This document shows positions 1 to 64,000 of a stretch of 64,000 nt of DNA, piece after piece. The DNA is from Cerasicoccus arenae. Lineage in GTDB: Bacteria > Verrucomicrobiota > Verrucomicrobiia > Opitutales > Cerasicoccaceae. The stretch covers positions 1 through 64,000 of the forward strand of contig NZ_BMXG01000015.1 of assembly GCF_014651635.1 (NCBI RefSeq), in the 5' to 3' direction. Below the pieces are notes generated by a model. That model ran no database searches. It was not told the origin of the DNA and was given only the letters and a program-made list of their open reading frames with translations. Made by a program: the position numbers and the translations under genes. The stretch's first letter is position 1, and each line of letters opens with the position of its first letter.

Positions 1-1440
1 GGGGGGGGGGCGGACATTTGGTGGGGGGGCGGGTGGAGCCAGTACTTGAGTGGGAGGCGGCGCTAAGCCTGCGGCTCCGGCTCCACCAAATAAGGAAAAA
101 GCAGTAATCCGCTCCACTGGGCCATCTTCGTCGGCAATGATGTCGCCCATGAGGCTGATTTCATAAATACGCAAGGTTGCCCCGGAGCCCGGATCGGGCA
201 TAAAACGAATGATTAAGAAGCGGCCAGTGAGGTTGGAGAAATCAATGCGGAAGCGTTCAGCACTTCCGTCGACCTTCTGTTCCACAGTGGGGGAGAGTTC
301 ACTGAAAAAGTCACCGGGTAGTGAAATAGTGCTAAAGATGGCGTCTCCTGCGAAATTGACGATAGAACTGAGAGCATCGTCTCCATTTTGAGCGAGTAAG
401 AGTGGCTCCCACTGGCCTCGATTGAAGATCATCGCCATGTCGTCGTCAGCTTTTGTCGTTGAGGAATCGGCCTTTTTGGCGGCATCTTTTTCCTGACGAT
501 CGAGGACATCCTTCACATCGTCGGGCAGTTTATTGACGACATAGAAGTCGAAGTTGCCGGGGCCGGATTCAAACAGCATAGAGACGCTGTTGACTTCTCG
601 CTGATCACTGAGATCGACGATAACGACGTTTTCTTGATCGCTGCTATCGAAGTCGTAGAAGCTCTCTACGTCGTCGTCGATCATGGACATTGCATAATCG
701 GCCTGACCGGAACTGACGTAGCTGACGCGTGAGTCCGCATGGGCGGAGGCATAGTTGAACTTAACGGGCTTGCTTTTGGTTGAGCTGGCGGTGTTGGCGG
801 CAATATTTTCATCTCGTTTCTGTTCGCGCATTCTGACTTCGGCAACCGATAGGTTGCCAAATGCCCCCATGTTGCCAATGACGCCAGCCTGATCGATGAC
901 GAGGTGAGCCATTAGGTAGCGAGCTTGGAAGGGCTTGAATTTCGGGCTAACAACTTGATTGAGACCAAATTTGTCTGCCGGAGCCGCACTTTTCCAACTA
1001 CTGGCGTCAGGAGCCTCGAGGGAGGGCGAATAATAGAGCTGCACGCTTCCTAGAGAGGTGAAGTTCTTGAAATTAAATCGGTTAACCATGAAGGAATCAT
1101 TGAGATCAACGACAAAGCGGTATTCACCTGGCTTAACATCAAACGAGGCGGTGGGGTCATCGGTCATTAAGGAACCCATCGTGTCTGTACTGTCCGCTTC
1201 TTGCCAACTGACGGGACTTAGGAAATTTTCCGACGCATCATAAAGAGTTGCCCCCATGTGCCATCGGGCCAAGTTTTTCTGTTTATCTAAGAGTTCCTCC
1301 TTGCTGACATCGGGCACTTCTAGCAGCGTCAATTCCGATTTATCAGAATTGCTCGTTGAGGTGTCAGCCCATAGCGACAAAGTCACCATCGAAATGAGTC
1401 CGATAGCGAAGCGCTTGTGAAATTTGGTTATACTTCTCAT
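1..1440 (-). CDS. Secreted discoidin-like protein, C-terminus cut by window edge
   Basis: An open frame of 480 codons with no stop runs from an ATG at 1440 off the left edge. It starts MRSITKFHKR, then a hydrophobic stretch ending near SLWADT, which reads as a signal peptide. Two stretches (about residues 95-180 and 235-300) have the beta-strand rhythm of galactose-binding-like (F5/8 type C) domains, for example VVIVDLSDQREVNSVSMLF. A third similar stretch (about 400-445) ends RIYEISLMGD. The last visible 35 residues are Pro/Ala/Gly rich and contain runs of 10 and 7 bases of G on the + strand at 1-10 and 23-29. It is divergent from the exopolysaccharide export genes, so a surface or matrix role is plausible. 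I do not recognise a specific family; the discoidin comparison is inference from pattern only. Confidence 0.75.
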   Translation of the reverse strand, partial: MRSITKFHKRFAIGLISMVTLSLWADTSTSNSDKSELTLLEVPDVSKEELLDKQKNLARWHMGATLYDASENFLSPVSWQEADSTDTMGSLMTDDPTASFDVKPGEYRFVVDLNDSFMVNRFNFKNFTSLGSVQLYYSPSLEAPDASSWKSAAPADKFGLNQVVSPKFKPFQARYLMAHLVIDQAGVIGNMGAFGNLSVAEVRMREQKRDENIAANTASSTKSKPVKFNYASAHADSRVSYVSSGQADYAMSMIDDDVESFYDFDSSDQENVVIVDLSDQREVNSVSMLFESGPGNFDFYVVNKLPDDVKDVLDRQEKDAAKKADSSTTKADDDMAMIFNRGQWEPLLLAQNGDDALSSIVNFAGDAIFSTISLPGDFFSELSPTVEQKVDGSAERFRIDFSNLTGRFLIIRFMPDPGSGATLRIYEISLMGDIIADEDGPVERITAFSLFGGAGAAGLAPPPTQVLAPPAPPPNVRPPP

Positions 1441-1605
1441 CAATTAAACCTCTATAATATATCTATTTTCAGCTAAATTGATAGTAAATTCAGCCGTTCT
1501 CCTCTTTATAATTGGGAGTTTATCGTCAGATTTGTTGATTCTCTTAAAGAAATGTTGCATAGAAAATTTATTCTATCGTAAAGCTTGTCTAGATAAATAT
1601 CTTTT
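1441..1605. promoter_or_regulatory. AT-rich divergent promoter region of the polysaccharide cluster
   Basis: This 165-base gap separates two outward-facing genes and is clearly AT-richer than its surroundings. It contains TATAAT-like boxes at 1453-1458 and 1507-1512, but neither has a convincing -35 box at the right distance, so I do not assign transcription starts. No clear operator palindrome is visible. Confidence 0.3.
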
Positions 1606-2871
1606 ATGAAAATGGGGTGTATGTTTTATTTGAATTGCTGTAAAAGGGCCAGGCGATCATGGGGCTTGTTTGCCCTAGTGTGGCTATGCTTTATCCAGTA
1701 CGCCCATGCTCAGAATGAGAATTTTAAGCTTGGGGGCTTCCTTTTCGACTTAGCAGCGACTCTGGAGGTTATTTACGACGATAACATCAATTACGCAGAA
1801 TACAATCCGCGGTGGGACATTATCATCCAGCCTGGAATCTCGTTAAATGGACGTTATCAGGTCTCAGAATTGAATACACTGAGCGTCAATGTAGGCATTG
1901 GTTACTCTAAGTATCTCCGTACACCGGAATTGGACTCGATTAACAATTTTCTGAATATCAATCCAGATACGGAAATTGCGTTCACTATTTTCATTGATGA
2001 TGTAACAATCGAGTTTTATGACCGATTGGCCTATAGTGTCGATGCCTCGGACGCCTTTGGGCTAAATGGAGCAGTGGTTTCCTCCAACCCTCTTGACTAT
2101 GGAAGATTCACGAATATCGCAGGTGTAGATGTTGATTGGGATCTCAACGATATTGTTCTGTTCGCTGGTTTCAGTAGAATGGACATCATTCCTACTTCTT
2201 CAACTTTTGACTACACACGTCGCCACGATTATAGCTTGGTTGGCGGCCCTCGTTTTCTCGTGGCCGATAACTTGACACTGGGCGTTACCGCGACTGGATC
2301 ACGCAATATCTACGATGAGAATGTTAATAACAACAGCTGGAGTTGGTCGGCTGGCCCGATGGCGATTTGGCAGGCTTCGGAGAATCTCAGTTTTTCAGGC
2401 AATATTGCATATCAGGAATTTTACTTCGACGACACAGGATCGATCAATGATTCTAGCCAGCCGAGTGGTTTGGTTGGCGCTGCCGCGGTTAGCCATCGGT
2501 GGTCCAGTGTATTTGAGCACTCCTTGTCGGCAGCGCACAGTTTTAATTTCGGTTACCTCTCCAACGTCGATTCTGTCTTTTCACTCACGTATGCATTTAA
2601 CTGGCGTATGAACAGTAAGATTAGTCCACGAGGGCAGGCTTATTGGGAATTGGGCTCAGATTCCGGTGGTTCTGGCTTCAACGCACTCGGTTTCCCGGTA
2701 TCAACTGCGGAAAATTATAGTCGCTATGGCATCGGTGTTGGCATAGATTACCGATTATCCACAAAAATCACAACCAGCTTGGATTATGCCTTTACCCATA
2801 AAAAATCCAACTTGTTTAACCGGTCCTATTACCAGAACCAGGTCACTCTTGGTCTGCGTTATGATTTTTAG
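1606..2871 (+). CDS. Outer-membrane beta-barrel of the polysaccharide export cluster (BBP2_2-like)
   Basis: The 421-residue product has an N-terminal signal peptide (hydrophobic core about residues 18-34, cleavage likely after AHA). The rest alternates polar and aromatic residues as in a beta-barrel and ends in the sequence RYDF with a terminal phenylalanine, typical of outer-membrane proteins. The opening strand motif EVIYDDNINYAE resembles barrel porins of the BBP2_2 type that accompany capsule and exopolysaccharide loci. The stop overlaps the start of the Wza-like gene by 11 bases, so the two are probably translationally coupled. Its likely job is a pore or scaffold for polymer exit; this is inferred from context. 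ATGs at 1606, 1612 and 1621 are all possible starts. Confidence 0.75.
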   Translation: MKMGCMFYLNCCKRARRSWGLFALVWLCFIQYAHAQNENFKLGGFLFDLAATLEVIYDDNINYAEYNPRWDIIIQPGISLNGRYQVSELNTLSVNVGIGYSKYLRTPELDSINNFLNINPDTEIAFTIFIDDVTIEFYDRLAYSVDASDAFGLNGAVVSSNPLDYGRFTNIAGVDVDWDLNDIVLFAGFSRMDIIPTSSTFDYTRRHDYSLVGGPRFLVADNLTLGVTATGSRNIYDENVNNNSWSWSAGPMAIWQASENLSFSGNIAYQEFYFDDTGSINDSSQPSGLVGAAAVSHRWSSVFEHSLSAAHSFNFGYLSNVDSVFSLTYAFNWRMNSKISPRGQAYWELGSDSGGSGFNALGFPVSTAENYSRYGIGVGIDYRLSTKITTSLDYAFTHKKSNLFNRSYYQNQVTLGLRYDF

Positions 2872-3871: not shown

Positions 3872-3874
3872 ATT

Positions 3875-5971: not shown

Positions 5972-6028
5972 TTCATTATATAAGTTTGTGTTGCCAATAG
6001 CGACTGGCCCTTAAAGCTGGCAAATTTT

Positions 6029-11931: not shown

Positions 11932-13293
11932 ATGAAACGCATTATTGTTAACACAGCCGCTGCGCTCGCTCTGAGTTTATCTCCGGCCTACGCCGATCTC
12001 GACTTGGAGAAGGATGAGCTCAAGTTCGGCTTTATTAAACTGACGGACTGCGCACCGCTCGTCATTGCCAAGGAAAAAGGCTTTTTCGAAGACGAAGGCA
12101 TTCAGGCCGAAGTCATTGCTCAGCCAAACTGGAAAACGCTGCTCGATAATGTCATTAATGGAAACCTAGACGGTGCGCACATGCTCTCGGGCCAGCCCAT
12201 TGCTGCTACGATTGGCATCGGCACTCAAGCCAATGTCATCACCGCCTTCACGATGGATCTAAACGGTAACGGCATCACCGTTTCCAACTCGATTTGGGAG
12301 GAAATGCAGTATAACGATCCGGCCCTCGATACACCTACGCCGAAGCACCCAATTTCCGCCGACTCGCTCAAGCCGATTGTTAAAGAAAAACTCGATGCCG
12401 GCGAGAAACTCCAGATGGGTATGGTATTCCCGGTATCCACGCACAATTACGAACTCCGTTATTGGTTGGCTGCCTCGGGCATCAATCCTGGAATGTATAC
12501 CGAAAGTGACACTGGCGGTCGCACGGATGCGGAAGTCGAGCTGTCGGTGACCCCCCCCCCTATGATGCCAACCGTGCTCGAAGCCGGAAATATTCAGGGA
12601 TATTGCGTTGGTGAGCCTTGGAACCAACAGGCCGTCGTCAAAGGAATCGGTGTGCCCGTCACCACTAATTACGATATCTGGAAGAACAATCCGGAAAAAG
12701 TTTTCGGCGTAACTCAGGAATGGTCTGATGCCAATCCAAACACCCATGTCGCTGTTGTGAAGGCGCTGATCCGCGCGGGTAAATGGTTGGATGAAAAGGA
12801 CGCCAGCGGTAATTTTGTCAACCGTGAAGAGGCGGTCCGCATTTTGTCTCAGCCCAATTATGTGGGGGCAGACTATGACGTGATCAAAAGCTCGATGACA
12901 GGCTCGTTCACTTTCCAAAAGAGCGATGTACGCTCGATGCCGGAGTTCAATGTATTCTTTGATGATTACGCCACATTTCCGTGGTATAGTGATGGCATCT
13001 GGTTTCTCACGCAAATGCGTCGGTGGGGCCAAATCAACGAGGCCAAGTCGCCGACTTGGTATCTTGAAACGGTGATGAAGGTCTACAAGCCCGACATCTA
13101 CTTGCACGCCGCCAAGCTCCTCCTAGAGGAGGGTCTCATCGAGAAATCCGAAGTGCCGTGGGATAGCGATGGTTTCAAACCTGCCACGGACGAATTTATT
13201 GACGGCGTTGTCTATGATGCTCACGACCCGATCGGCTACTTGAACTCGCATAAAATTGGCAACAAGGATCCAGCCGGACTGACCGCTAACTAA
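11932..13293 (+). CDS. nrtA: Nitrate ABC transporter, periplasmic substrate-binding protein
   Basis: The 453-residue protein starts with a Sec-type signal peptide ([21 protein letters not shown]). It then shows the NrtA pattern: [20 protein letters not shown], the ligand-region motif [31 protein letters not shown], and [19 protein letters not shown]. In NrtA these surround nitrate in the cleft between two lobes. There is no lipobox cysteine, so unlike cyanobacterial NrtA it should be soluble in the periplasm. The Pro-Pro-Pro in the VTPPP motif is encoded by a run of ten C (12551-12560). A GC hairpin separates it from nrtB, consistent with higher expression of the binding protein. Confidence 0.92.
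12551..12560 (+). repeat. C10 homopolymer inside nrtA
   Basis: A run of ten C in frame encodes Pro-Pro-Pro of the conserved VTPPP motif. A one-base slip would shift the frame about halfway through the protein. Confidence 0.9.
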
Positions 13294-38105: not shown

Positions 38106-38759
38106 TTACGCTTTGCGCGTTGCTTTCGGGCTTTTGCGGGCCGGATAAAGAGTCTGGCAGATTTCACACACGGTTCCATTGCACCCGCGGGCGCTGCAAT
38201 GTTCCCGTCCATAATAGATGATCTGCAAATGGAGTTTATTCCAACGTTCACGAGGGAAAAGGTCCTTCAAATCGCGTTCAGTCTGTTTGACGCTTTGCCC
38301 ACTGGTCAGCCCCCAGCGTTGCGCCAAACGATGAATGTGCGTGTCCACGGGGAAGCTTGGAATGCCAAATGCTTGTGCCATAACGACTTGCGCTGTTTTG
38401 TGCCCGACGCCTGGCAGGGCCTCCAGTGACTCAATATCCGCCGGGACCCCCCCCCCATGCTTCTGAACGAGGATCTTCGAAAGCCCTTGGATTGCTTGAG
38501 CTTTTCGTGGGGCCAAGCCGCAGGGACGCACGATGGCGTTGATTGCATCCACGTCCTGTTGGGCCATGTCAGCCGGGTTGTCTGCTAATGCAAACAGCGC
38601 AGGAGTGGTCAAATTAACGCGTACATCGGTGCATTGCGCCGAGAGCAGCACCGCTACTAACAAAGTATAGGGGTCTCGGTGATCAAGCGGAATCGGCGGG
38701 TCGGGGTATAACTCCGCCAATCTCTGGTCAACGTAGGCCGCTCGCTCCTTTTTTGTCAC
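38106..38759 (-). CDS. nth: Endonuclease III (DNA glycosylase/AP lyase) with unusual Fe-S loop
   Basis: The 217-residue enzyme excises oxidised pyrimidines. The helix-hairpin-helix LEALPGVGHKTAQVV contains the catalytic Lys, and VDTHIHRLAQRWG contains the catalytic Asp. The C-terminal cysteines are spaced C-x4-C-x4-C-x2-C (CSARGCNGTVCEIC) in place of the classical C-x6-C-x2-C-x5-C, so the 4Fe-4S loop is shortened or re-wired. A Gly-Gly-Gly just before the hairpin is encoded by a run of ten G on the coding strand (38447-38456). Its start is two bases from the stop of the outer-membrane barrel gene upstream, so the two may share a transcript. Confidence 0.9.
   Translation of the reverse strand: MTKKERAAYVDQRLAELYPDPPIPLDHRDPYTLLVAVLLSAQCTDVRVNLTTPALFALADNPADMAQQDVDAINAIVRPCGLAPRKAQAIQGLSKILVQKHGGGVPADIESLEALPGVGHKTAQVVMAQAFGIPSFPVDTHIHRLAQRWGLTSGQSVKQTERDLKDLFPRERWNKLHLQIIYYGREHCSARGCNGTVCEICQTLYPARKSPKATRKA
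38447..38456 (-). repeat. G10 homopolymer (coding strand) inside nth
   Basis: Ten C on the + strand, read as GGG GGG GGG G by the gene, encode Gly-Gly-Gly between helices before the catalytic hairpin. A slip would remove the catalytic half. Confidence 0.9.
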
Positions 38760-38761
38760 CT

Positions 38762-39685
38762 TTAGAAATTCCAGCCGCCTTGGATACCGATGGCGAGAGC
38801 CGGGTCGGTCTTAATGGACTGGTAGGTGCTTTGGTTTTGGCGAAACTCAAATTTGCGATAGAGAATGCCCTTCAAATAACCGCGGATGTAGAGACCATTT
38901 TCAAAACGTTGGGTTACCCCCCCCGCAACTACGATGGATTCTGTTTCGGCGACTGGTGTTCGCGTAAGGCCGGGAGCGAGCGTCTGGGTCTTCATGCGGA
39001 AGAGGTCGTTTTCGTATTCGGTAGTAAAGTCTAGCACGGTCGACATATCGCCCGAAACGTCGTAGCTGAGCGTAAAGCCGTTGAAGGTGCGAAGAATGAG
39101 GTCATCGGTAATGTACCAGTTGAGAATGGGCAAGGGCAGGGCGTACATTTCGCGTTGCTCTTGGCCAATTGCCATTACTCCGAGACTAAAGGAGTTTAGC
39201 TCGCCCCAGAAGTAGGTGACGCCGACTCCAGCGCGATAAGACCCCCCCCCCGCGAGGTTCCCCCCGTCATATTCAGCACCCAAGGTCGCGCCCAACACAG
39301 CAAACATGCCCCAGTCAGAATCAACAAAACGCTGACCAAAAATCGTCTGAAGCGTCATTTCATAGGTGTCGTTCAGGTAAGTTGGCCCCCCCCATTGCCA
39401 ATCCGTATACTCAAAAGCGAAACCAACGCGCCAGAACCCACGATCCCAGTAGGTGGCGTAATCGATTGCTGTAGTGAAGACATTGGAGGCGAGGTCTCCG
39501 TTGTAATTGCCCTGTAGATCCGAGGCGAAGTCGTACTCATAGTTCTGAGTTATTGTAAAGCCCAGTTCCTTCTGAGAAGAAATGATGTCGAGGAAAGACA
39601 CCCCCCCCGTCGTCGTTTGCGCCCGCAGGATTCCTGTGGCGGCAAGCATGAAACTGAATGCGAAAAGCAGCTTGGATCGTGACAT
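38762..39685 (-). CDS. Outer-membrane beta-barrel with four coding poly-G tracts
   Basis: From the ATG at 39685 the 307-residue product has a signal peptide (MSRSKLLFAFSFMLAATGIL, cleavage near RAQ). About ten to twelve amphipathic strands follow, for example WRVGFAFEYTDWQW, YRAGVGVTYFWGEL and YIRGYLKGILYRKFEF, and it ends GIQGGWNF with a terminal Phe. The function is unknown and it could be a porin or adhesin. Four runs of eight to ten G on the coding strand (+ strand 38917-38924, 39242-39251, 39386-39393 and 39601-39608) each encode Gly-Gly or Gly-Gly-Gly. The last sits a few residues after the signal peptide. Such tracts in a surface protein are typical of phase-variable genes. Frame stays open further upstream to 39787. 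Confidence 0.75.
   Translation of the reverse strand: MSRSKLLFAFSFMLAATGILRAQTTTGGVSFLDIISSQKELGFTITQNYEYDFASDLQGNYNGDLASNVFTTAIDYATYWDRGFWRVGFAFEYTDWQWGGPTYLNDTYEMTLQTIFGQRFVDSDWGMFAVLGATLGAEYDGGNLAGGGSYRAGVGVTYFWGELNSFSLGVMAIGQEQREMYALPLPILNWYITDDLILRTFNGFTLSYDVSGDMSTVLDFTTEYENDLFRMKTQTLAPGLTRTPVAETESIVVAGGVTQRFENGLYIRGYLKGILYRKFEFRQNQSTYQSIKTDPALAIGIQGGWNF
38917..39608 (-). repeat. Four poly-G tracts within one surface barrel gene
   Basis: Tracts of 8, 10, 8 and 8 at 38917-38924, 39242-39251, 39386-39393 and 39601-39608 (C on the + strand), with a further run of 6 at 39260-39265. All keep the frame as given. Confidence 0.9.
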
Positions 39686-39863
39686 GACGGGCCAGCGTGC
39701 GACGTTCCTTGGCAAAATCAACACCCAAACAGCTCTTTTACGCTGTGGTGTTCTAATTACCACCGATCGTTTCGGTCTCAATGGCAATTCGGACTGATCT
39801 GATACGCTGTTGGTTTTCGTTTGCCATACGGTTCAGACTTTGCCTACTTAGCGGGCTTTTCTC

Positions 39864-41660
39864 ATGAAGCGGACCCATACTTGCAGCCAGTTAAATAAAG
39901 CCAACGCAGACGACACCGTCACACTCATTGGATGGGTGGAATCAGTGCGCGACCACGGCGGTGTGCTCTTTGTAGATTTGCGCGATCGCGCAGGCCTCAC
40001 GCAAATTGTCTTTCATCCAGACTATCCCGAGCTGCATACGCAGGCGGGCCGTCTTAAAGATGAATCAGTCATTCAAGTGACAGGCATCGTAAAGTTGCGT
40101 GAGCCGTCGACGGTTAATTCGGGCCTGCCTACCGGGGAAATTGAAGTCTCCGCACGCGAGATCATCATTCACAATTTATGCGAAACGCTGCCGTTTCCGC
40201 TGCAGGACGAGAAGGCTGAGAAGGTCAATGAAGACCTCCGCCTGCAGTATCGCTACCTTGACCTGCGTCGCCCGAAAATGCGTCGGATGATGACGATTCG
40301 TAGCACCGCCGCCAAGAGCTGTCGTGACTATTTGGCCGACGAGGGCTTCCTCGAAATCGAGACCCCGGCCATGTTCAAGTCTACCCCCGAAGGCGCGCGC
40401 GAATTTCTCGTGCCGAGCCGTTTGAATCCGGGTGACTTCTACGCACTGTCCCAGAGTCCGCAACAATACAAGCAGATGTTGATGGTTGCCGGGATCGAGC
40501 GTTATTACCAGATCGCACGTTGTTTCCGCGACGAAGACCTTCGCGCCGACCGCCAGCCTGAGTTTACTCAAATTGACTTGGAAATGTCGTTCATTGAGCG
40601 CGAAGACATGTATACGCTTATTGAGGGCATGCTCAAGAAGATGTGGAAGGACGTGCTCAACGTCGATGTGCCCACGCCGTTCCAGCGTTTGACCTATAAA
40701 GACGCGATGAACCGCTATGGCGTCGACAAGCCTGACACTCGCTTCAATATGGAGTTGGTCGACCTCTCAGAAGATCTTAAAGACACTGGTTTCAAAGTCT
40801 TCTCCTCCGTCATCAAGGGGGGGGGGGTAGTCAAGGCCATGAACGCCAAGGGCCTCGGTGACATTTCCCAAGGCGAAGTCAAGGCGATGGAAGACGTGGC
40901 CAAGTCGCTCGGCGCCAAGGGCCTGGCCTACATCGTAGTGCGTGGTGACGACGTTAAGGAATGGCGCTCGCCGATCATCAAATTTTTCTCTGAAGACGAG
41001 CTCAATGCGTTGAAGACCAAGCTCAGTATCGAAGACGGCGACCTGATTTTGTTCGCTGCCTCGAAATGGGAGCAAGCCTGTGCAATTCTCGGCCGTATCC
41101 GCTTGGAAAGCGCCCAATTACTCAAGAAACGCGGTAAGCTGGAAATTTCTGACTCCCAGTATAACTTCCTGTGGGTCGTGGACTTCCCGCTCATGTTGTT
41201 TGATGAGGACGAGGGCCGCTATGTTGCTGCGCACCACCCGTTTACTGCGCCGCATCCGGACGATATCGACAAACTCGACACGGACACGAAGAACTGCCGT
41301 TCACAAGCTTACGACGTCGTGCTGAACGGCTCGGAAATCGGCGGCGGCTCGATTCGTATCCACCAACCCGAGCTGCAAGACAAGGTCTTTAAGAACGTTC
41401 TCGCGATGTCGCCAGAAGTCGTGGAATCCCGTTTCGGCTACATGCTGAAGGCCTTCAAATTCGGTGCCCCGCCTCACGGTGGCATTGCGCTTGGTCTCGA
41501 CCGCTTGGCCGCGATTCTCGGCAATGTTAAGTCAATCCGCGAAGTTATTGCATTCCCGAAGACTCAAAAGGGCCAAGACTTGATGACGAGTGCTCCTGGT
41601 CCAGCGACCGACAAGCAGCTTCGCGATCTCCATATCGCGGTGACCAAGCTCGAAGACTAA
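39864..41660 (+). CDS. aspS: Aspartyl-tRNA synthetase
   Basis: The 598-residue class II synthetase has the anticodon-binding OB fold first (about 1-105, VTLIGWVESVRDHGG). Class II motif 1 follows, then motif 2 (RYYQIARCFRDEDLRADRQP) at about 215. The bacterial GAD insertion is at about 290-420, and motif 3 (GIALGLDRLAAILG) at about 545. Length fits bacterial AspRS. It attaches aspartate to tRNA-Asp. A run of eleven G (40817-40827) encodes Gly-Gly-Gly within the GAD domain. Transcription ends at a good hairpin at 41708-41745. It starts 178 bases from the divergent barrel gene. Confidence 0.96.
   Translation: MKRTHTCSQLNKANADDTVTLIGWVESVRDHGGVLFVDLRDRAGLTQIVFHPDYPELHTQAGRLKDESVIQVTGIVKLREPSTVNSGLPTGEIEVSAREIIIHNLCETLPFPLQDEKAEKVNEDLRLQYRYLDLRRPKMRRMMTIRSTAAKSCRDYLADEGFLEIETPAMFKSTPEGAREFLVPSRLNPGDFYALSQSPQQYKQMLMVAGIERYYQIARCFRDEDLRADRQPEFTQIDLEMSFIEREDMYTLIEGMLKKMWKDVLNVDVPTPFQRLTYKDAMNRYGVDKPDTRFNMELVDLSEDLKDTGFKVFSSVIKGGGVVKAMNAKGLGDISQGEVKAMEDVAKSLGAKGLAYIVVRGDDVKEWRSPIIKFFSEDELNALKTKLSIEDGDLILFAASKWEQACAILGRIRLESAQLLKKRGKLEISDSQYNFLWVVDFPLMLFDEDEGRYVAAHHPFTAPHPDDIDKLDTDTKNCRSQAYDVVLNGSEIGGGSIRIHQPELQDKVFKNVLAMSPEVVESRFGYMLKAFKFGAPPHGGIALGLDRLAAILGNVKSIREVIAFPKTQKGQDLMTSAPGPATDKQLRDLHIAVTKLED
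40817..40827 (+). repeat. G11 homopolymer inside aspS
   Basis: Eleven consecutive G, in frame as aaG GGG GGG GGG Gta, encode Lys-Gly-Gly-Gly-Val in an essential gene, so frequent slippage here should be costly. Confidence 0.9.
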
Positions 41661-41696: not shown

Positions 41697-41707
41697 GGGG
41701 GGGGGGG
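41697..41707 (+). repeat. G11 homopolymer in the aspS 3' region
   Basis: Eleven G directly touch the 5' side of the aspS terminator stem. It is non-coding, so it is free to vary in length. Confidence 0.85.
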
Positions 41708-45138: not shown

Positions 45139-46497
45139 ATGGCTGAAATAAAGGAGAAAACAAAGGAAGCGGTCCGTAGCCGATTTAACTGGTTAATCTG
45201 GCCTGTGGCAATCATCGGACTCATTGCTGCAGGGATCTACGGTTATCAGCGGCTTCAATTCGATGAGGCGCACATTGTCACCGACAATGCTCAGGTGCAG
45301 GGACAATTGATCAAAATTCTGGCACCCGAACGAGGTTGGCTGAACACTGTATCGGTATTCGAAAACCAACCCGTTACAGAGGGCACCATTCTGGGCGAAC
45401 TGGAGAACCAGTATTACCAACTGGAGGTGGAGCGTGCCCAAGCTAAACTGAATGCGTTGCAGGCGCGTAAGGGAACCTCTGGCACGAAGGATGGCAGCGG
45501 ACTAGCTCAGGCTAAATTGGCCACAGCACAGGCTAATCTGGAGGTTGTTCAGGCTCAGCTTTCCGAAGCGCAGTCCACCGCCAAGCAGTCCACTGCTCAG
45601 CTTCAGCGCATGCAGTCCAACAAGATCAGCCAGACCTTTGTGCAGTCTCAATTAGATATGGCTCAGGGCAGTGCGGATCAAGCAAACGCCCGTCTACTAA
45701 CTCTGCAGAAAGAGGCCTATGCCGCCCAACAGGAGGTTCAAGAAGCGATGGCTGGTGCCCAGCTCCTCGATTACAACATTGAGGAGGCCAAGGCAGAGCT
45801 TGCCCAAGCCCAACTGAACCTCTCATCCACGGAAATTAAGTCGCCAATCAACGGCCATATTGCCCAGCTCAAGGTCAACCCCGGCACAATGGTTGAGCAG
45901 GGCCAGTATCTGATGACCGTGGTTTCGGACGACGATAAATGGCTTGTGGCCAACATTAAGGAAACTCTGTTTGAACGCATTTATCTCGGCGATAAGGTCG
46001 ATGTCACGATAGACGCTTTTCCAGGCACGGATTTCAAAGGCGTAGTAGCTAGTTTAGCCCCCGCTGCGGGCAACCAATTTAGCATCATTCCGCGAAATGC
46101 AGCCAGTGGTAATTTTATCAAGGTCGAAGCCCTTATCCCTGTTGTGATTCGCTTTACGGAACCACTCAGTGACATTGAAAAACTTGTCCCAGGCATGAGC
46201 GCAGAGGTGACAATCAGTGTGGATGCCAAGCGTAAATGGGAGCCGGTTATCGATCCAAGCAAACCGCTTAAAGCCTCACCAGCTAAGGACAGTAATAAAG
46301 CCGCCAGCTCAGCACCTCCTGAAACACCGACCCCTATTCCTTCAACACCAACAGCCTCAGTGAAGCCCACTAACACGGCTACACCCGTCAATATCGCCAC
46401 GCCGGTTAAGACAGCCAAGCCGGTCGACACAGCTACACCCGTCAGCGCGGAGCCTGCCCCCCCCCCCGCAAACGTAGATACGGCTAATGCCCACTGA
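45139..46497 (+). CDS. EmrA-like membrane fusion protein with Pro/Thr-rich tail
   Basis: The 452-residue protein has one membrane segment (about 19-36, WLIWPVAIIGLIAAGIYGY). The family's THDAQV-like stretch (HIVTDNAQVQGQL) is next, then a long coiled coil of Ala/Gln repeats (about 95-240) between lipoyl half-motifs, ending IKSPINGHIAQLKVNPG. The beta-barrel part follows. The last ~65 residues are a low-complexity tail with repeats of the type TATPV and a terminal Pro-Pro-Pro encoded by eleven C (46457-46467). Its stop overlaps the transporter gene by 11 bases. Together they form an EmrAB-type drug export pair. The outer-membrane partner is not next to them. Confidence 0.88.
   Translation: MAEIKEKTKEAVRSRFNWLIWPVAIIGLIAAGIYGYQRLQFDEAHIVTDNAQVQGQLIKILAPERGWLNTVSVFENQPVTEGTILGELENQYYQLEVERAQAKLNALQARKGTSGTKDGSGLAQAKLATAQANLEVVQAQLSEAQSTAKQSTAQLQRMQSNKISQTFVQSQLDMAQGSADQANARLLTLQKEAYAAQQEVQEAMAGAQLLDYNIEEAKAELAQAQLNLSSTEIKSPINGHIAQLKVNPGTMVEQGQYLMTVVSDDDKWLVANIKETLFERIYLGDKVDVTIDAFPGTDFKGVVASLAPAAGNQFSIIPRNAASGNFIKVEALIPVVIRFTEPLSDIEKLVPGMSAEVTISVDAKRKWEPVIDPSKPLKASPAKDSNKAASSAPPETPTPIPSTPTASVKPTNTATPVNIATPVKTAKPVDTATPVSAEPAPPPANVDTANAH
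46457..46467 (+). repeat. C11 homopolymer at the emrA-emrB-like junction
   Basis: Eleven C encode Ala-Pro-Pro-Pro near the end of the fusion protein, 20 bases before the transporter start at 46487. Slipping by one base ends the first protein at TAG (46475) or at TAA (46485), both at or before the start of the second gene. Confidence 0.9.
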
Positions 46498-48046
46498 GGA
46501 AGCAAAGGGGCACCCTCAGCGGTATTGGATTGCTTTGGCGGTGACGCTTTCCTCGCTCGTCGAGGGCTTGGATACGTCGGTTGTCAATGTGTCGGTGCCG
46601 CAGATGATGGGGAGTTTCGGCGTGTCCCTCGACGCCATCGCATGGGTCTCGACGGGCTACATTCTTTCTAATGTGATTATCATCCCATTGACGGGTTGGT
46701 TGGCGTCGCTCTTTGGACGAAAACGGTATTTTACGGGTTCATTGGCACTGTTCACTCTGGCGAGTTTCCTTTGCGGACACGCGGGTTCACTGGAGTCCCT
46801 GATTTTCTGGCGTGTGGTGCAGGGGATTGGCGGGGGAGCGTTGGTCGCCACATCGCAGGCGATTCTTTACGAGGTATTCCCCCCCCGGGAGCACTCTCGA
46901 GCAATGGCGATTTGGGGAATGGGTATCATGGTCGGCCCAGCGATGGGCCCCGTGCTCGGTGGCTACCTGACAGAGACCATGTCATGGCCATGGATTTTCT
47001 ACATCAATATTCCGGTCTGTATCGCGGCGCTTATTCTGGTGGTGTTTTTAGTGCCAGAGTCGAAGTATCGCGAAAAGGTGCGCAAAGTGGATTTTCTAGG
47101 GCTGTTGCTCTTGGCGATTGGTTTGGGTGCCTGCCAATTATTGTTGGAAGATGGAAACAAAATCGGCTGGCTTGCGTCCGCGGCTGGCTGGGAATTAACA
47201 GGGCTTACACTGTTCTGCCTCGGACTTTTCATTTGGCGAGAGCTGACTTTTGAAAGCCCGGTCGTGGATTTACGGATCGTTGGCAATCTCCAGTTTTCTG
47301 CCTGCTGCCTGTTTACTTTTGTGCAAGCATTGTGCACGTTGGCGATCGTATTTGTCACGCCATTACTGTTACTCGACCTGATGGGCTACAGTGCTCTGCA
47401 AACTGGTTTTATCATGCTGCCAGTTGCCGTGGGCACGAGCCTGGTGATGTTCGTTGTGGGACGTATTTCGCATTTATGTAACCCCTATGGTCTAATCTTG
47501 GGCGGGGTCGCTATTTTCCTCTACGCAATGTGGAAATACAGCTACTTTGACGTTTTGACGCCGGACACTGCCTTTACCTTTCCGCTACTATTAAGGGGCA
47601 TTGGCTTGGGGATGATCTTTGTGCCACTCAATGCGTTGGCGGTTGCCGACCTCCCCCCCAGTAAACAAGCTGCTGCTACTGGGCTGTTAAACCTGACCCG
47701 CCAGTTCGGCGCGAGTGTCGGTGTCGCGGTTGCGGCGGCGGTTCTCGGTAGTATGCAGGGGCAATTTGAAGCGCAATTAATCGACGCTGCAACCAGTAGT
47801 TCGCCAGAGCTGACCATTGTAGGCCAAGATGTAATGAACATGCTTCACAGCGAGGGGGTTATCAATCCAACTGCTCACTATACGGCGCTTAAACTCTTGC
47901 ATGACTACACGCATCAGCAGGCGACGAGTATCGCTTTTGATCGGATCTTCACAATCTTCGGCCTAGCTTTGCTAGCTGCTGTGCCATTGATCGTCTTTAT
48001 GCGCAAAAATCCGGACCGCAGTAATCCGGCTCCAACTGGGCATTGA
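46487..48046 (+). CDS. EmrB/QacA-like major facilitator drug exporter (14 segments)
   Basis: The 519-residue protein belongs to the DHA2 group. Its segment-1 motif is LSSLVEGLDTSVVNVSVPQM (the Leu-Asp-x-Thr-Val-Val-Asn-Val pattern) and motif A reads GWLASLFGRKRYF. Motif C (GPAMGPVLGGYLTETMSWPW) marks it as an antiporter that exports drugs with protons. Two further C runs fall in the gene (46879-46886 coding Pro-Pro in PPREHSR, and 47653-47659 coding Pro-Pro in LPPSKQA). It overlaps and is probably coupled with the EmrA-like gene. The substrate is unknown; a MarR gene lies 4 kb upstream. Confidence 0.9.
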   Translation: MPTEEAKGHPQRYWIALAVTLSSLVEGLDTSVVNVSVPQMMGSFGVSLDAIAWVSTGYILSNVIIIPLTGWLASLFGRKRYFTGSLALFTLASFLCGHAGSLESLIFWRVVQGIGGGALVATSQAILYEVFPPREHSRAMAIWGMGIMVGPAMGPVLGGYLTETMSWPWIFYINIPVCIAALILVVFLVPESKYREKVRKVDFLGLLLLAIGLGACQLLLEDGNKIGWLASAAGWELTGLTLFCLGLFIWRELTFESPVVDLRIVGNLQFSACCLFTFVQALCTLAIVFVTPLLLLDLMGYSALQTGFIMLPVAVGTSLVMFVVGRISHLCNPYGLILGGVAIFLYAMWKYSYFDVLTPDTAFTFPLLLRGIGLGMIFVPLNALAVADLPPSKQAAATGLLNLTRQFGASVGVAVAAAVLGSMQGQFEAQLIDAATSSSPELTIVGQDVMNMLHSEGVINPTAHYTALKLLHDYTHQQATSIAFDRIFTIFGLALLAAVPLIVFMRKNPDRSNPAPTGH

Positions 48047-48101: not shown

Positions 48102-49079
48102 TCACTGCATCCACTGAACCCAGTCTTGGCTGTAGCTCTTTAAGTTGTTTCGGCTGATGACTTCACCGCCGGTTTGAATGACCCTTAGGGGGGGGGGCTG
48201 TTTGAGGTGGACTGCATTGATCGCCGCTTCCATTGCGAGATAGCCCCAGCGATAGTAAAGCTGCGCGACAAGCGCATCTACTTGCTTTTGGCCAACGTAG
48301 GCAAGCATTGGGGGCAGCGCATCTACTGCTACACAGACCTGTTCTCCAGGCTTCCAGGGGAGGGGAGTTACGCCCAACAACGGCCATGGTCCTAATAGAA
48401 TCCATCCATCGATCGCTTCGTCTTGATCTGTAGCCTGAACTTCGCGTAGGACGTTGATTGCGCCGTCAACGGTCTCGATACAGGGGTAGACAGCTTGAAT
48501 GCTAACTTGAGGATTTGCCTCTGCTGCAAGCTGAACTGCGGCAAGGCGCTCTTGATTAACTGGGGCATCGGCGTTACCCACGAGAACCGCCAAATTGCCA
48601 CCGCGTGGTAGCTTTTTGGCGGCATGATCGAAGGCGATTTGGCCGATTGCTGCGTTGTCTGTGGAGACTGTTGCCAGCCGTGGGCTATCTGGCGCATCTT
48701 GGTCGAAGGTGACAATGTGGACGCCTTGGCGGGCCATCAGATCGAACTCCTTTTCGATCGTTTTCGGCTCAGAAACGCTGATCAAGACCGCGTGTGCTCC
48801 CTTAATAAATGCTTCGCGTAGCGCAGATGACTGGCCGTTTCCAGGTGTTGGTGTCAGATCGACAAGCGTGATTGCCAAGTGATGCTGATGTTCCAGAACC
48901 TTAGCGGCGTCCAGTGCGCCCTGTCGAGCTGGACCATTAATCAGATTCGTGGTGTCTTCGCCGATAAAGGCTACGGTGTAGCGCTCCCAAATTTCGCGAG
49001 GTCGTTCGCCTTGAGCAGAGCCAGCGAACAGTACGCAAATGAAGAAAAAAGCGGAGAAAAAAAGAGATCGGGTATTCAT
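48102..49079 (-). CDS. Orphan periplasmic sugar-binding protein (peripla_BP_4-like)
   Basis: The 325-residue product has a signal peptide (MNTRSLFFSAFFFICVLFAG, cleavage near AQG). It then shows the ribose-binding-like fold: VAFIGEDTTNLINGPARQGAL, HIVTFDQDAPDSPRLATVSTD, GNLAVLVGNADAPVNQERL and PPMLAYVGQKQVDALVAQ. These are typical of ABC sugar receptors and LuxP/RbsB-like sensors. No permease or ATPase gene is adjacent, so it may serve a distant transporter or a sensor kinase. Near the C-terminus, ten C on the coding strand (48188-48197 on the + strand as G) encode Pro-Pro-Pro. Confidence 0.78.
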   Translation of the reverse strand: MNTRSLFFSAFFFICVLFAGSAQGERPREIWERYTVAFIGEDTTNLINGPARQGALDAAKVLEHQHHLAITLVDLTPTPGNGQSSALREAFIKGAHAVLISVSEPKTIEKEFDLMARQGVHIVTFDQDAPDSPRLATVSTDNAAIGQIAFDHAAKKLPRGGNLAVLVGNADAPVNQERLAAVQLAAEANPQVSIQAVYPCIETVDGAINVLREVQATDQDEAIDGWILLGPWPLLGVTPLPWKPGEQVCVAVDALPPMLAYVGQKQVDALVAQLYYRWGYLAMEAAINAVHLKQPPPLRVIQTGGEVISRNNLKSYSQDWVQWMQ

Positions 49080-50585: not shown

Positions 50586-51551
50586 ATGCCCGCATTCGAT
50601 TATCCGCTTGAGAAACTAAAAACTTACATGGGGCAAAGCCCATGCCCGGCTGATTTTGACGTCTACTGGACGGAGGCACTCGAAGAGATGAAGGCAGTGG
50701 ACGCCCAACCAGAACGCGTTGCTGCGAGCTTTTCGACGGCCTTTGCCGACTGCTACGAGTTTTACTTCGCTGGTGTTGGCGGTGCCCGAGTGCATGCCAA
50801 ACTTGTTGTACCCAAGAGCGTTCCCAAGGGGGGCTGCCCGGCCATCGTGCAGTTTCACGGCTATAGTGGTAGCAGCACCGAATGGTCTGGCCTGCTGACG
50901 ATGGCGGCTTCTGGATTTGTCATGGCTGCGCTGGATTGCCGGGGCCAAGCGGGTGAGTCGCAGGAAATCGTTTCCGCAAACCTTAGCACATTCAAGGGAC
51001 ACATCATCCGCGGGTTACGCAATGGTCCGAAGCACTTGGCCTTTCGTTCGATTTTTCTCGATGCGGCGCAACTCGCTGGGCTAGTCATGGACATGCCCGA
51101 AGTTGACGCCACCCGTGTGGCGTCTCAGGGAGGCAGTCAGGGGGGGGCGCTTTCACTGGCTTGCGCAGCACTTGAGCCGCGTATTGCGAAGGTGGTTGCA
51201 CAATACCCATTTTTGTCGGACTACTATCGCGTTTGGCAGATGGACCTCGCGGAGAATGCCTACGATGAACTTCGCGCATTTTTCCGTCAGGTCGATCCTC
51301 TTCACGAGAAGGAGGAAGAAACGTTTAACACGCTTGGCTACATCGATGTAAAGAATCTGGCACCGCGCATTAAGGGCAATACACTGATGGCTATTACTTT
51401 GATGGATAAAATCTGCCCGCCATCCACGCAGTTTGCAGCTTACAACAACATCCACGCCCCCAAGCGCCATATTATATACTACGACTACGGCCACGAGGGA
51501 CTTCCGAACTGGTCAGACCACGCCTACGATTTCTATCGAGACTGGATGTAG
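50586..51551 (+). CDS. Acetyl-xylan esterase / cephalosporin-C deacetylase family hydrolase
   Basis: The 321-residue alpha/beta hydrolase matches the AXE1 family: FDVYWTEALEEMKAVDAQPE at the start and PAIVQFHGYSGSSTEWSG. The oxyanion region is ALDCRGQAGES and the nucleophile elbow is GGSQGGALSLA (Ser about 184). The Asp lies in MAITLMDKICPPSTQF and the His in DYGHEGLP. It removes acetyl groups from sugars. No signal peptide, so it is cytoplasmic and likely acts on imported oligosaccharides. Eight G (51140-51147) encode the Gly-Gly right after the nucleophile Gln. Confidence 0.9.
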   Translation: MPAFDYPLEKLKTYMGQSPCPADFDVYWTEALEEMKAVDAQPERVAASFSTAFADCYEFYFAGVGGARVHAKLVVPKSVPKGGCPAIVQFHGYSGSSTEWSGLLTMAASGFVMAALDCRGQAGESQEIVSANLSTFKGHIIRGLRNGPKHLAFRSIFLDAAQLAGLVMDMPEVDATRVASQGGSQGGALSLACAALEPRIAKVVAQYPFLSDYYRVWQMDLAENAYDELRAFFRQVDPLHEKEEETFNTLGYIDVKNLAPRIKGNTLMAITLMDKICPPSTQFAAYNNIHAPKRHIIYYDYGHEGLPNWSDHAYDFYRDWM

Positions 51552-51676: not shown

Positions 51677-52417
51677 TCAATGTCCGGTAATAGGCTTGAT
51701 GCCGCCGAAGGCTGCGAAGCAGGAATTTTTGTGGAGGATGTCGACAGGGCGAAAGCCGACACGGTGCATCAGTTCGATCTGATAAGTTACGGAGCGAGGG
51801 GAGTCCTCGCGGTCAATGTATGAAAAGACCTTCTTTGCGTAGTCTGCGCCACCAAGTCCTGTAAGGTATTCGCCGTAGCGTCGCCACATCAGCAAGTGTA
51901 CTTGCTCGGATTCATGGGCGACCAAGTCAGTGATCCAAAATGAACCGCCGGGCCGCAACAGGCTAAAGATCATGGCAAAAGCAGCCTCCCAATCGGCATC
52001 GTCGCGCAGGTGATGCATGACCGCTGCTGCGATAACTACATCGAAGGTGGCCGTCGGGAAGGCAATGTCGCGGAAGTCGCCTTGGTAAACACGTACGACG
52101 CCATCGTTCTCGGCTTTCAAGCGCTCTTCCGCGCGTTCCAACATGGGCAAACTGAGGTCGCAAATGTCGCAATCGAAGTCCTCGCCGTATTCTCGCCGCA
52201 GTTTGATGGTGTTGTTTGCCGCGCCACATCCGATGTCGAGCACTCGCCGGATAGTTGGCGTTGCTGCGATTGCTGCTTGAGTGATGAGGTCCATCGCCAG
52301 TGGGGCATCAATGGTCGCCGCCTGACCAGTTTCGAGATTCGAAAATCGCTCAACATCGGCGTCAAAGCGCCCGCGGATTTCATCAATGGTGGACTTTTCG
52401 TGTAACGGCGTGGCCAT
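51677..52417 (-). CDS. SAM-dependent methyltransferase (Methyltransf_25/12 type)
   Basis: The 246-residue protein has motif I VLDIGCGAANNTIKL (about 59), CDICDLSLPMLERAEERL (acidic loop) and motif post-I VVIAAAVMHHLRDDADWE (about 128), followed by LLRPGGSFWITDLVAHES. The region after FWITD resembles small-molecule and tRNA-cmo5U-type methyltransferases, but no specific family can be set. It stands alone, convergent with the esterase gene. Confidence 0.82.
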   Translation of the reverse strand: MATPLHEKSTIDEIRGRFDADVERFSNLETGQAATIDAPLAMDLITQAAIAATPTIRRVLDIGCGAANNTIKLRREYGEDFDCDICDLSLPMLERAEERLKAENDGVVRVYQGDFRDIAFPTATFDVVIAAAVMHHLRDDADWEAAFAMIFSLLRPGGSFWITDLVAHESEQVHLLMWRRYGEYLTGLGGADYAKKVFSYIDREDSPRSVTYQIELMHRVGFRPVDILHKNSCFAAFGGIKPITGH

Positions 52418-52514: not shown

Positions 52515-52522
52515 GGGGGGGG
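52515..52522. repeat. G8 homopolymer in the gap before the Imm42-like gene's 3' end
   Basis: Eight G in the non-coding stretch between the methyltransferase start and the stop of the gene at 52530. Confidence 0.85.
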
Positions 52523-52529: not shown

Positions 52530-53033
52530 TTACTCATCAGGCGTTTCTATCCAACGTAAAAACGCGCTGACGCTTTCTTGAAATGCATCGACGCTGACGG
52601 TGCCGGATTGAATTTCGTCGCCATCATTGCAGAAGATAATCTGGACCTGTTGTTCGGCGCGTACAATGAAGGACTTGGAGCCGTCAAAGGATTCGCCGCC
52701 ATTGGTCAGGAAGTCATAGCGGTAATCGAAATTGTCGCCCAGGGGGTCATCGATTGGTTCAATGCCTTCGGTATAAAGCGCTTGATCAAGGCACTTAAAG
52801 GCCATGCGGGCTGTTAGCGAACTGAGCGTGGAATTCGACAGGTTATCGAGCGTGCGTAGCTTCACGCGAAGGAAATCTGCCGTTACGTTGAGCATGCACA
52901 TGGGCTGATTGACATTGCCTAAGGGCAAGCCGTTGACCCAACAACACATGCGTCCAAAGACCCATTGTCGCTTACTATCTACCTTGGTTGCATAGGCCTC
53001 GATGGCAAATACTTCACGTTTACCAAAATCCAT
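52530..53033 (-). CDS. Imm42-like immunity protein, orphan
   Basis: The 167-residue protein has no signal peptide. Its first 60 residues (FAIEAYATKVDSKRQWVFGR, then CCWVNGLPLGNVNQPMCMLN) follow the pattern of the Imm42 immunity family: FAIE..., W-x-FG, then W-x-NG-x-x-x-G. These proteins usually protect bacteria from toxins of polymorphic toxin systems. No toxin or secretion gene is visible next to it. Stand-alone immunity genes are known as acquired defences against neighbours' toxins. The family call is from memory of pattern, so it should be tested. The gene lies between the methyltransferase and pckG. Confidence 0.55.
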   Translation of the reverse strand: MDFGKREVFAIEAYATKVDSKRQWVFGRMCCWVNGLPLGNVNQPMCMLNVTADFLRVKLRTLDNLSNSTLSSLTARMAFKCLDQALYTEGIEPIDDPLGDNFDYRYDFLTNGGESFDGSKSFIVRAEQQVQIIFCNDGDEIQSGTVSVDAFQESVSAFLRWIETPDE

Positions 53034-57344: not shown

Positions 57345-57998
57345 ATGGCTAATATTTTTCCCAAATGGAGCAACACTGCGCCGATCAAAATTTTGATCTG
57401 TTTGGCGCTCACAGTCGGCACTGTAGTCGCAGGAGTTACTTACTGGGCCACGCCCAAATATTTGCGCGTTGGCTACCAGCCGATACAGCCCGTTGCTTTT
57501 GAGCACTCGCTGCACGTTGACCAACTGGGCATGGATTGTCTCTATTGTCACACTTTTGTGGACCGCTCGGAGCACTCAAATGTTCCCGCCGCTTCCACTT
57601 GTATGAATTGCCATAGTATGGTGAAGAGCGACAGCCCGAAACTTGCGCCGATTCGCAACAGTTACGAATCTGGTGAGCCAGTGCCATGGGTGAAGATTCA
57701 TCGCACTCCAGACTACGTATATTTTAATCACTCGGTGCACATTAACCGAGGCGTCTCTTGCGTCCACTGCCACGGTCAAGTCAATGAAATGGAGGAGGTT
57801 TACCACGCGAAACCGCTTTCCATGGCTTTCTGTTTGGAGTGTCACCGCAATCCTGAAAACTTCATTCGACCTATCGATGAAGTGACGAACCTTAATTTCC
57901 GCTACGATAGCCGTGAGGAACAGATCGAGCAGGGCACGAAATTCGTGCACGATTGGAAAGTAAACCCACCGCAAAGCTGTTCCGGGTGCCACCGATGA
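57345..57998 (+). CDS. actA: Alternative complex III pentaheme cytochrome c subunit ActA
   Basis: The 217-residue protein has an N-terminal membrane anchor (about 11-33, ILICLALTVGTVVAGVTYWA). Five heme-binding CxxCH motifs follow: CLYCH, CMNCH, CVHCH, CLECH and CSGCH (the last ends in HR at the C-terminus). Pentaheme ActA is the known arrangement in alternative complex III, where it passes electrons from quinol oxidation to the monoheme ActE. Its stop overlaps actB by four bases (ATGA). Confidence 0.93.
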   Translation: MANIFPKWSNTAPIKILICLALTVGTVVAGVTYWATPKYLRVGYQPIQPVAFEHSLHVDQLGMDCLYCHTFVDRSEHSNVPAASTCMNCHSMVKSDSPKLAPIRNSYESGEPVPWVKIHRTPDYVYFNHSVHINRGVSCVHCHGQVNEMEEVYHAKPLSMAFCLECHRNPENFIRPIDEVTNLNFRYDSREEQIEQGTKFVHDWKVNPPQSCSGCHR

Positions 57999-61474: not shown

Positions 61475-61505
61475 TTTCTAACTTGCAACCTTTGACACCG
61501 AAACC

Positions 61506-62996: not shown

Positions 62997-63532
62997 TGAG
63001 CGCCAAATCGACCTATGCGTTGCTGGCTACGTTCAGCAAGACGCCTGAATTCTTCCAAGCGACTGCCAAAGTGCGTGACGCCGGGTTTAAAAAATGGGAC
63101 GTGTTTACTCCGTTTCCTGTTCATGGACTGGACGACCAAATGGGGGTCGGTCGCTCAAAGGTTCCGATCTTCACGCTTTGCGGTGGAGTATTCGGTTTTT
63201 GCTTGGGCACGCTCATCACTTGGTATATGAATGGCTTTGATTATCCGCTTATTGTGGGTGGCAAGCCATTCTGGAGCCCGGTATTCCCGTTCCCAGTCAT
63301 GTATGAGCTGACAATTCTTAATGCAGCTTTTGGTACATTGCTCGGCATGTTCACCATGAACCTGCTCCCGCGGCATAACCACCCGCTGTTTGAATACGAG
63401 GACTTCCTAAAGTCCAGTGACGATACTTTCTTCATCGTGATCGAAAAGGCAGACCCGCAATTCGATCTCGATAAAACTAAAGCCTTTTTAACTGAAATCG
63501 GGGCCGAAGAGGTCCACGTGGTCGAAGCCTAA
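62996..63532 (+). CDS. actD: Alternative complex III subunit ActD (DUF3341)
   Basis: The 178-residue protein has the DUF3341 layout: a cytoplasmic N-terminal part ([20 protein letters not shown], then [12 protein letters not shown]) and two membrane segments at about 60-80 and 100-125. The C-terminal soluble part ends in [15 protein letters not shown]. ActD is a known ACIII subunit lying against ActC. It shares an A of its start with actC's stop (TAATG). Confidence 0.93.
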
Positions 63533-63533
63533 G

Positions 63534-64000
63534 ATGCGCATTTTTCTGGCAGTCTGGTTATTTGTGGTCGTTGCGACGGTCTCCATTCTTGGATTCCGTG
63601 GCGATAAGTCCCGTTCCGCCCCTCGTTGGGTATTCCCGGATATGGACATACAGGCCAAATATTTGCCTCAGGGGCAGAACGAATTCTTCGCGGATGAGCG
63701 CAATGACCGGCCTATGGTTCCAGGCGCTGTTCTACGTGGCTACAATTCGGACATCAAGGAAGTCTTCGATGGTGAGTACGTCTTCGCTAAGGCCGAAAAT
63801 CCAGCGCTTTTTACTGGTCTGAATGAGAGCGGAAAGCCTGTCACGGAGTTTCCATTAGAGGTTACGTATGACTTAGTTCAGCTGGGGCAGAAGAAATACA
63901 CTATTTTCTGCCAGCCCTGTCACGGACGAGTTGGTGACGGCATGGGCATTACCAAGAAATATGGCATGAGCGCCACGCCGACATACCACGATGATGGAAA
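63534..64000 (+). CDS. actE: Alternative complex III monoheme cytochrome c ActE, cut by window edge
   Basis: The frame from the ATG at 63534, one base after actD's stop, runs open for 155 codons to the edge. It begins with a membrane anchor (IFLAVWLFVVVATVSILGF). The PMVPGAVLRGY block typical of ActE follows, with a single CxxCH motif (FCQPCHGRVGDG) about residue 123. ActE accepts electrons from ActA. ActF and probably cytochrome oxidase genes should follow outside the window; this is inferred from known operons. Confidence 0.92.
   Translation, partial: MRIFLAVWLFVVVATVSILGFRGDKSRSAPRWVFPDMDIQAKYLPQGQNEFFADERNDRPMVPGAVLRGYNSDIKEVFDGEYVFAKAENPALFTGLNESGKPVTEFPLEVTYDLVQLGQKKYTIFCQPCHGRVGDGMGITKKYGMSATPTYHDDG

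Follow-up and report, generated by a model that had tools for sequence, protein, structure and literature searches.

Genome-wide excess of long G/C homopolymers in a Cerasicoccus genome and their possible origin in a mutational ratchet

The window analysed here, a stretch of 64,000 nucleotides, comprises bases 1-64000 of contig C15 of a Cerasicoccus (Verrucomicrobiota) genome (G000; 4.13 Mb, 63 contigs), and long runs of G or C were the feature under study. The sequence-only reading had listed 14 runs of at least eight G or C, eight of them ten or longer, and had expected two or three runs of at least eight at random. All 14 were found at the listed starts, eight of them with at least ten bases (three of length 11 and five of length 10), and three further runs of 7 were present. 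The random expectation was likewise reproduced, as an independent-base model gave 2.28 runs of at least eight, and it gave 0.16 of at least ten. One hundred dinucleotide shuffles yielded a mean of 1.36 and a maximum of 4 runs of at least eight versus 13 counted, and 0.06 runs of at least ten versus 7 counted; these counts omit the run at base 1, which the search pattern was unable to count. The crowding of 12 of the 14 runs between 38.4 and 52.6 kb proved real: among windows not crossing piece ends, this is the densest 14.2 kb in an 864-kb sample of the 4.13-Mb genome, which includes the window.

Eleven of the 14 runs lie within open reading frames (ORFs) of at least 150 amino acids that stay open across the run. 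In the following, the strand given with a run is the one that reads G. The aspartyl-tRNA synthetase (AspRS) gene (39864-41660) carries 11 G (40817-40827, plus), and its product is 93% identical to that of Cerasicoccus maritimus and 92% identical to that of C. frondis, the nearest named matches. An NMT1-like gene (11932-13293, plus) contains ten C (12551-12560, minus) with the sense Thr-Pro-Pro-Pro, and an HhH-GPD base-excision-repair gene (38106-38759, minus) contains ten C on the plus strand (38447-38456, minus) with the sense Gly-Gly-Gly. Four runs fall into a single minus-strand ORF of 341 amino acids without a Pfam match (38762-39787), namely C8 at 38917-38924, C10 at 39242-39251, C8 at 39386-39393 and C8 at 39601-39608 (all minus). 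Further runs were located close to the end of a HlyD/CusB-like gene (45139-46497; C11 at 46457-46467, minus), in an MFS transporter gene (46487-48046; C8 at 46879-46886, minus), near the end of a periplasmic-binding-protein gene (48102-49079, minus; G10 at 48188-48197, plus, sense Pro-Pro-Pro) and in an acetyl xylan esterase gene (50586-51551; G8 at 51140-51147, plus). The remaining runs are G10 at 1-10 (plus), the first bases of the contig, in an open minus-strand frame that runs off it; G11 at 41697-41707 (plus), intergenic with convergent ORFs on both sides; and G8 at 52515-52522 (plus), between the end of an Imm42-like immunity protein gene identified by Pfam (52530-53033, minus) and the start of a methyltransferase gene (51677-52417, minus). 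An Rfam scan of the window at gathering scores returned no match. That coding runs keep the frame, another claim of the sequence-only reading, was borne out for 10 of the 11 window runs with a homologue aligned across them; the sole alignment over the run at 46457 is gapped and in an opposite-strand frame and says nothing on the ORF frame.

Alignments with genus mates (G001, G002 and G003) revealed how such runs differ from the corresponding sites. The AspRS tract reads AAG GGG GGG GGG GTA, where G001 has AAG GGC GGC GGC GTG. Both encode Lys-Gly-Gly-Gly-Val, as does G003, G001 and G003 use GGC/GGT, and no gap was seen. At 12551, the residues are identical in G002 and two third bases inside the tract differ. 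At 51140, Gln-Gly-Gly-Ala is the same in G002, which uses GGT GGG. At 46879, Phe-Pro-Pro is shared with G002, followed by Lys for Arg, and the third bases of Phe and the first Pro differ. In the 38447 tract the third Gly is replaced by Glu in G001, and the residues encoded at 48188 are not conserved at that site. Across the sample, 50 of the 148 tracts of at least eight could be paired with a relative, and 73 of the 83 tract-genome pairs were ungapped at the tract; seven of the ten gapped pairs were inspected and showed 25-51% identity. DNA alignments spanning a tract, judged by the first alignment listed, were ungapped within it for 19 of 21 tracts. For the 11 tracts in proteins sharing at least 80% identity, the relative had the same base at codon positions 1 and 2 in 58 of 64 cases (control 0.90) and at codon position 3 in 13 of 35 (control 0.65). 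Over all 83 pairs, codon positions 1 and 2 matched in 177 of 250 and 167 of 240 cases, respectively (control 0.73). Judged by these sequence comparisons, the runs are shown to have arisen by base substitution without length change where relatives align, mostly at third positions in conserved proteins.

Counted over whole genomes, runs of at least nine numbered 455 in G000 and 94, 5 and 52 in the three genus mates, the 5 being those of G002; the highest count in the remaining 128 of the 132 genomes counted was 89. The 331 runs of at least ten in G000 were the top value of 288 sampled genomes of the phylum, with G192 (313) and a genome with 81 as runners-up. G192, a genome of 3.0 Mb from a different family, is apparently an independent case. 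The genome-wide homopolymer count, which the sequence-only reading had named as a check, thus left the excess standing and confirmed that it spans the whole genome.

The distribution of run lengths was analysed in the 864-kb sample and in samples of 1.2 Mb (G002) and ~0.4 Mb each (G001 and G003). In G000, G/C runs of lengths 6-14 numbered 119, 47, 49, 19, 37, 19, 11, 8 and 2, and the longest were one each of 16, 20 and 22. The counts cease falling at 7 and then form a second peak. A/T runs keep dropping (498, 139, 35 and 4 for lengths 6-9), and none is longer than nine. For comparison, synonymous codons were shuffled 30 times within 580 ORFs of at least 150 amino acids (700 kb of coding sequence). 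The ratio of observed to codon-shuffled runs was 0.83, 0.68 and 0.58 at lengths 4, 5 and 6, 1.0 at 7, 2.7 at 8, 4.0 at 9 and 25 at 10. Fifty coding runs of at least ten were observed versus about 2 after shuffling, and 23 of at least 11 versus less than one. In G002 the ratio was 0.40, 0.13 and 0.13 at lengths 6-8, and its coding sequence (1.0 Mb) had no run of at least ten, with about 1.3 expected; G001 had 4 (about 0.8 expected) and G003 had 1 (about 1.9 expected). Noncoding sequence of G000 contained 30 runs of at least ten versus about 0.2 by an order-2 Markov model, and that of G002 (198 kb) contained one. Runs of at least eight were denser in noncoding sequence (56 in 165 kb) than in coding sequence (93 in 700 kb). 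The excess therefore also outlasted the codon-shuffled comparison suggested in the sequence-only reading, and it is not due to codon or base composition alone.

Gly3 stretches (n = 132) with 0, 1, 2 and 3 GGG codons numbered 84, 22, 9 and 17 versus 80, 44, 8 and 0.5 expected, and Pro3 stretches (n = 47) with 0, 1, 2 and 3 CCC codons numbered 14, 9, 6 and 18 versus 18, 21, 8 and 1.0 expected. There was no excess of stretches with two such codons. The use of GGG and CCC in these stretches is all-or-none. The corresponding numbers for G002 were 133, 31, 5 and 0 for Gly3 and 11, 18, 2 and 1 for Pro3.

The explanation favoured here, with about even confidence, is a mutational ratchet that would act on G:C homopolymers throughout the genome and generate the runs. 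In stretches grown to about 7-8 G or C, synthesis that slips or misaligns would convert interrupting or bordering bases to the run base. This conversion would outpace the breaking of runs by ordinary silent turnover, and purifying selection would purge frame changes and many amino-acid changes. Ungapped conversion of interruptions and an excess growing with run length are predicted by such a ratchet, and both were observed. A 16-base run in ilvD, the gene for dihydroxy-acid dehydratase (L006:11583-11598), is the longest in any gene with a clear homologue. It covers residues unlike those of the homologue, and past the run the homology to G002 continues in a different frame, as slippage would do; either a slipped state of the population or an error in consensus length may underlie it. 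A toy simulation in which runs are filled once past a threshold of 7 or 8 came close to the all-or-none counts and to the abundance of long runs; without filling, no run of at least ten emerged.

Several results weigh against the ratchet. Gly and Pro residues within tracts matched the relative in 134 of 220 cases versus 2380 of 3134 outside the tracts of these alignments. At tract edges, codon positions 1 and 2 matched in 32 of 54 and 23 of 42 cases, respectively, versus 0.73. Since tract Gly and Pro are less conserved than others, some runs did replace amino acids. Such runs occur mainly in less conserved genes, for example the 341-residue ORF with four runs at 38762-39787, whose product is ~56% identical. 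Gly3 stretches with one GGG codon reach half of the expected number, but this shortage is not special, because G002 has a similar one (31 versus 51 expected). The exact 8/9/10 pattern is not reproduced by the toy model, which gives too many runs of 8 at threshold 7 and too few at threshold 8. It also misses the excess of A-interrupted runs (29 versus 2.3) and the A flanking runs on the 5' side, even when A is made resistant. Finally, no cause was found among the repair genes examined, and the number of Y-family polymerase matches does not track run counts, as G005 and G009, with one match each as well, carry just 10 and 23 runs of at least nine.

With respect to candidate causes, mutS and mutL are present in G000 as open frames of 889 and 668 codons without internal stop; both appear intact by sequence, and, judged by gene presence, their loss was rejected as the cause. 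Two matches to DinG-type helicases and a dGTPase, again without internal stop, are present as well, so that missing repair genes of these kinds were also rejected. G192 has no dGTPase match. A/T runs of at least eight numbered 39 in 864 kb versus 8, 7 and 12 in ~400 kb each of G001, G002 and G003, a comparison in which the G000 sample has the lower G+C content (0.525 versus 0.549-0.567 in genus mates). Y-family polymerases gave one match in G000 and two or three in genus mates, which is a lead only. The mycobacterial Y-family polymerase DinB2 resembles the process proposed here, as it is reported to slip more on G/C than on A/T runs, in a length-dependent way and strongly from 6-8 bases upwards, in the accessible part of that study (PMC10159617). 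The same part describes slippage in vitro and in reporters in mycobacteria, whereas G000 has fewer Y-family matches than its genus mates.

Three explanations had been offered by the sequence-only reading, each for a part of the excess, and this interpretation was supported in part. A compositional habit fails as the sole cause. That ordinary codon and base composition generated the runs, with the normal avoidance of long runs merely relaxed, is extremely improbable. The shares of GGG and CCC codons, 0.15 and 0.28 compared with 0.11-0.15 and 0.29-0.33 in genus mates, speak for it, but the approximately 2 runs of at least ten after shuffling versus the 50 seen refute composition as a sufficient cause, runs of 4-6 are still below expectation, and relaxed avoidance by itself would bring the observed/expected ratio only to 1. 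Phase variation also fits poorly. In Campylobacter, slippage in poly-G tracts switches contingency genes, and as here runs of ~8-13 G/C are over-represented and many lie within genes. The range of 8-13 G is the one that switches there, and the ilvD run is out of frame with its homologue. The available part of a survey of Campylobacter jejuni (PMC6321876) gives a median of 20 tracts per genome, 77-82% of them in ORFs, lengths peaking at 9-10, ON/OFF states, and C on the coding strand in 5%. In contrast, this genome has several hundred runs, 148 of at least eight in 864 kb, both genic and intergenic, on mixed strands (sense-strand C in 52 of 88 ORF runs), and housekeeping genes such as those for AspRS and dihydroxy-acid dehydratase are included. 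The runs are mostly in frame where this was judged. Homologous proteins among the ORFs of relatives (E up to 1e-4, no identity cut) were available for 84 of 148 tracts; of 45 tracts judged for frame, 43 were spanned by homology in one frame and two were flagged, one (L113) consisting of two neighbouring paralogous genes and the other being the ilvD run. Nine tracts at which homology ends were not counted as frame changes (three at contig starts, six with matches of 21-44% identity there), and the other 30 were left unjudged. The 93 runs in ORFs showed no 5' bias within genes (24, 19, 20, 12 and 18 by quintile). For tracts outside ORFs (n = 56), placement succeeded for 37, and the other 19 lie at piece edges. 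The 19 co-directional, 11 convergent and 7 divergent tracts, in 70, 27 and 21 kb, showed no divergent excess, and intergenic classes hold runs about in proportion to their length. Among 13 repeat pairs inside the sample, one carried a run of 7 and none a run of at least eight. Switching of genes by tract slippage is, on these grounds, a very improbable explanation.

The third explanation, a sequencing effect, would mean that interruptions in G-rich stretches were miscalled as G (e.g. as dark-channel G) or misassembled. Part of it stood: 11 of 27 contig starts have a run of at least eight in their first 60 bases versus 0.8% of internal 60-mers, indicating that the assembly stumbles on runs. Run counts differ greatly between genus mates, C and T interruptions are seemingly lost with A in excess as a dark-G error might yield, and the ilvD run breaks the frame. 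As an origin of the runs the effect fits poorly, because in conserved proteins the first two codon positions are preserved within runs to about the same degree as elsewhere in the alignments. In the coding sequence of G002, the single interruption of a length-8 near-run falls on one of the first two codon positions in 86 of 149 G cases and 123 of 152 C cases, so blind filling would often change residues. Among tracts in proteins at least 80, 70 and 60% identical, 1 of 11, 5 of 18 and 10 of 26 had an inner difference at position 1 or 2, rarer than the share of 0.58 or more among near-runs (binomial p = 0.001, 0.009 and 0.035 against 0.58). With edges included the numbers rise to 5 of 11, 9 of 18 and 15 of 26, a point in favour of an artefact, and ordinary divergence adds to every one of these counts. 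The flank effect is greater 5' than 3' of the G run, the opposite of what carry-over on G-strand reads would cause. The runs are probably not a base-calling artefact, and we rate this source as very improbable. Unlikely, too, is a selected and recognised DNA signal of a 5' A followed by 8 to 13 G, comparable to uptake, Chi-like recombination or chromosome-organising motifs. For runs of at least eight, A directly precedes the G run on its 5' side in ~0.50 of coding and ~0.68 of noncoding cases versus 0.28 in codon-shuffled genes. For runs of at least ten this was seen genome-wide in 186 of 331, and elsewhere in 115 of 313 (G192), 8 of 81 (G144), 5 of 46 (G029), 11 of 38 (G061) and 0 of 31 (G095); small samples of genus mates gave 61% of 33 (G001) and 55% of 22 (G003). 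This preference, the hundreds of copies and a Poisson-like density at the 20-kb scale (43 bins, mean 3.44, variance 3.54) agree with a signal. However, enrichment climbs with an open-ended length and without a plateau at motif length, and the genus mate G002 has just 5 runs of at least nine. Moreover, 47 of 148 runs lie within 300 bp of another (mean under uniform placement 14.4, maximum of 500 simulations 31), as do 24 of 92 ORF runs versus 8.2 when Gly-Gly/Pro-Pro sites are drawn (maximum of 500 draws 21), a clustering that a spread signal need not show. In pieces with clear skew, the G-rich strand is the one that reads G for 60 of 87 coding runs and 39 of 50 noncoding ones; this polarity is strong but does not exceed the ~79% given by codon-shuffled genes, and a replication-strand signal was rejected. 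Interrupted runs whose arms sum to at least ten were broken by A in 29 cases (2.3 expected), by C in 7 (4.8) and by T in 6 (3.1). A rather doubtful but conceivable view is that an undescribed sequence-aware process, by enzymatic conversion or as a selected signal, writes 5'-A-G(8 to 13) at silent and noncoding sites and spares A as border and interruption, a like state having arisen independently in G192.

In eukaryotic microsatellites, replication slippage removes interruptions, and as here interrupted repeats are perfected without net length change. A literature search on slippage removing repeat interruptions found no bacterial case among the papers listed; the part of one report at hand (PMC9990875) describes the opposite direction, with point mutations breaking repeats. 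Orsi et al. 2010 likewise described, genome-wide in prokaryotes, that coding genes hold statistically more homopolymers than expected. In the accessible portion of that work (PMC2831843), the excess concerns poly(A)/poly(T) of 3-7 bases near the 5' ends of genes, poly(C)/poly(G) of more than 2 bases is generally under-represented, and 7-8-mers of poly(C) and poly(G) are over-represented in 11 and 9 of 99 genomes, whereas the runs studied here consist of 8-22 G or C and show no preference for gene 5' ends. Among the titles listed by literature searches, none dealt with long G/C homopolymers in Cerasicoccus or with bacterial runs created by silent substitutions, which does not prove that no such work has been published. 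Long G:C homopolymers of bacteria are commonly interpreted either as sequences under avoidance or as switches of genes. Here, G:C runs accumulate by point changes, all-or-none, in a genome with mutS and mutL genes. If the ratchet is true, it would constitute a natural mutator specific to one sequence class, and the origin of poly-G tracts, hence of contingency loci, would become directly testable. It would also caution that a count of poly-G genes does not prove phase variation.

Some further observations concern contig starts and G runs in relatives. The run-less contig starts of L102/L104 and of L106/L115 are shared repeats, identical over ~105 bases (bases 1 to about 107). A short element that recurs in two genus mates, G001 and G003, consists of a G run followed by TAAA, 10-30 bases and TATCAA. 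Of 216 loci, 7 carry it, and all of these lie outside G000 and G002 (L141:8385-8414, L146:6541-6569, L147:11880-11909, L149:17336-17367, L152:11070-11099, L163:11185-11214 and L176:14249-14278), and the three of the seven that were scanned (L149, L163 and L176) had no Rfam match. Two apparently orthologous regions of G003 and G001 (L140:6945-9365 and L175:10156-12534) have three G runs in the same order, with lengths in G003/G001 of 10/8, 8/9 and 9/9; the last two are aligned, the middle one in a slightly different register.

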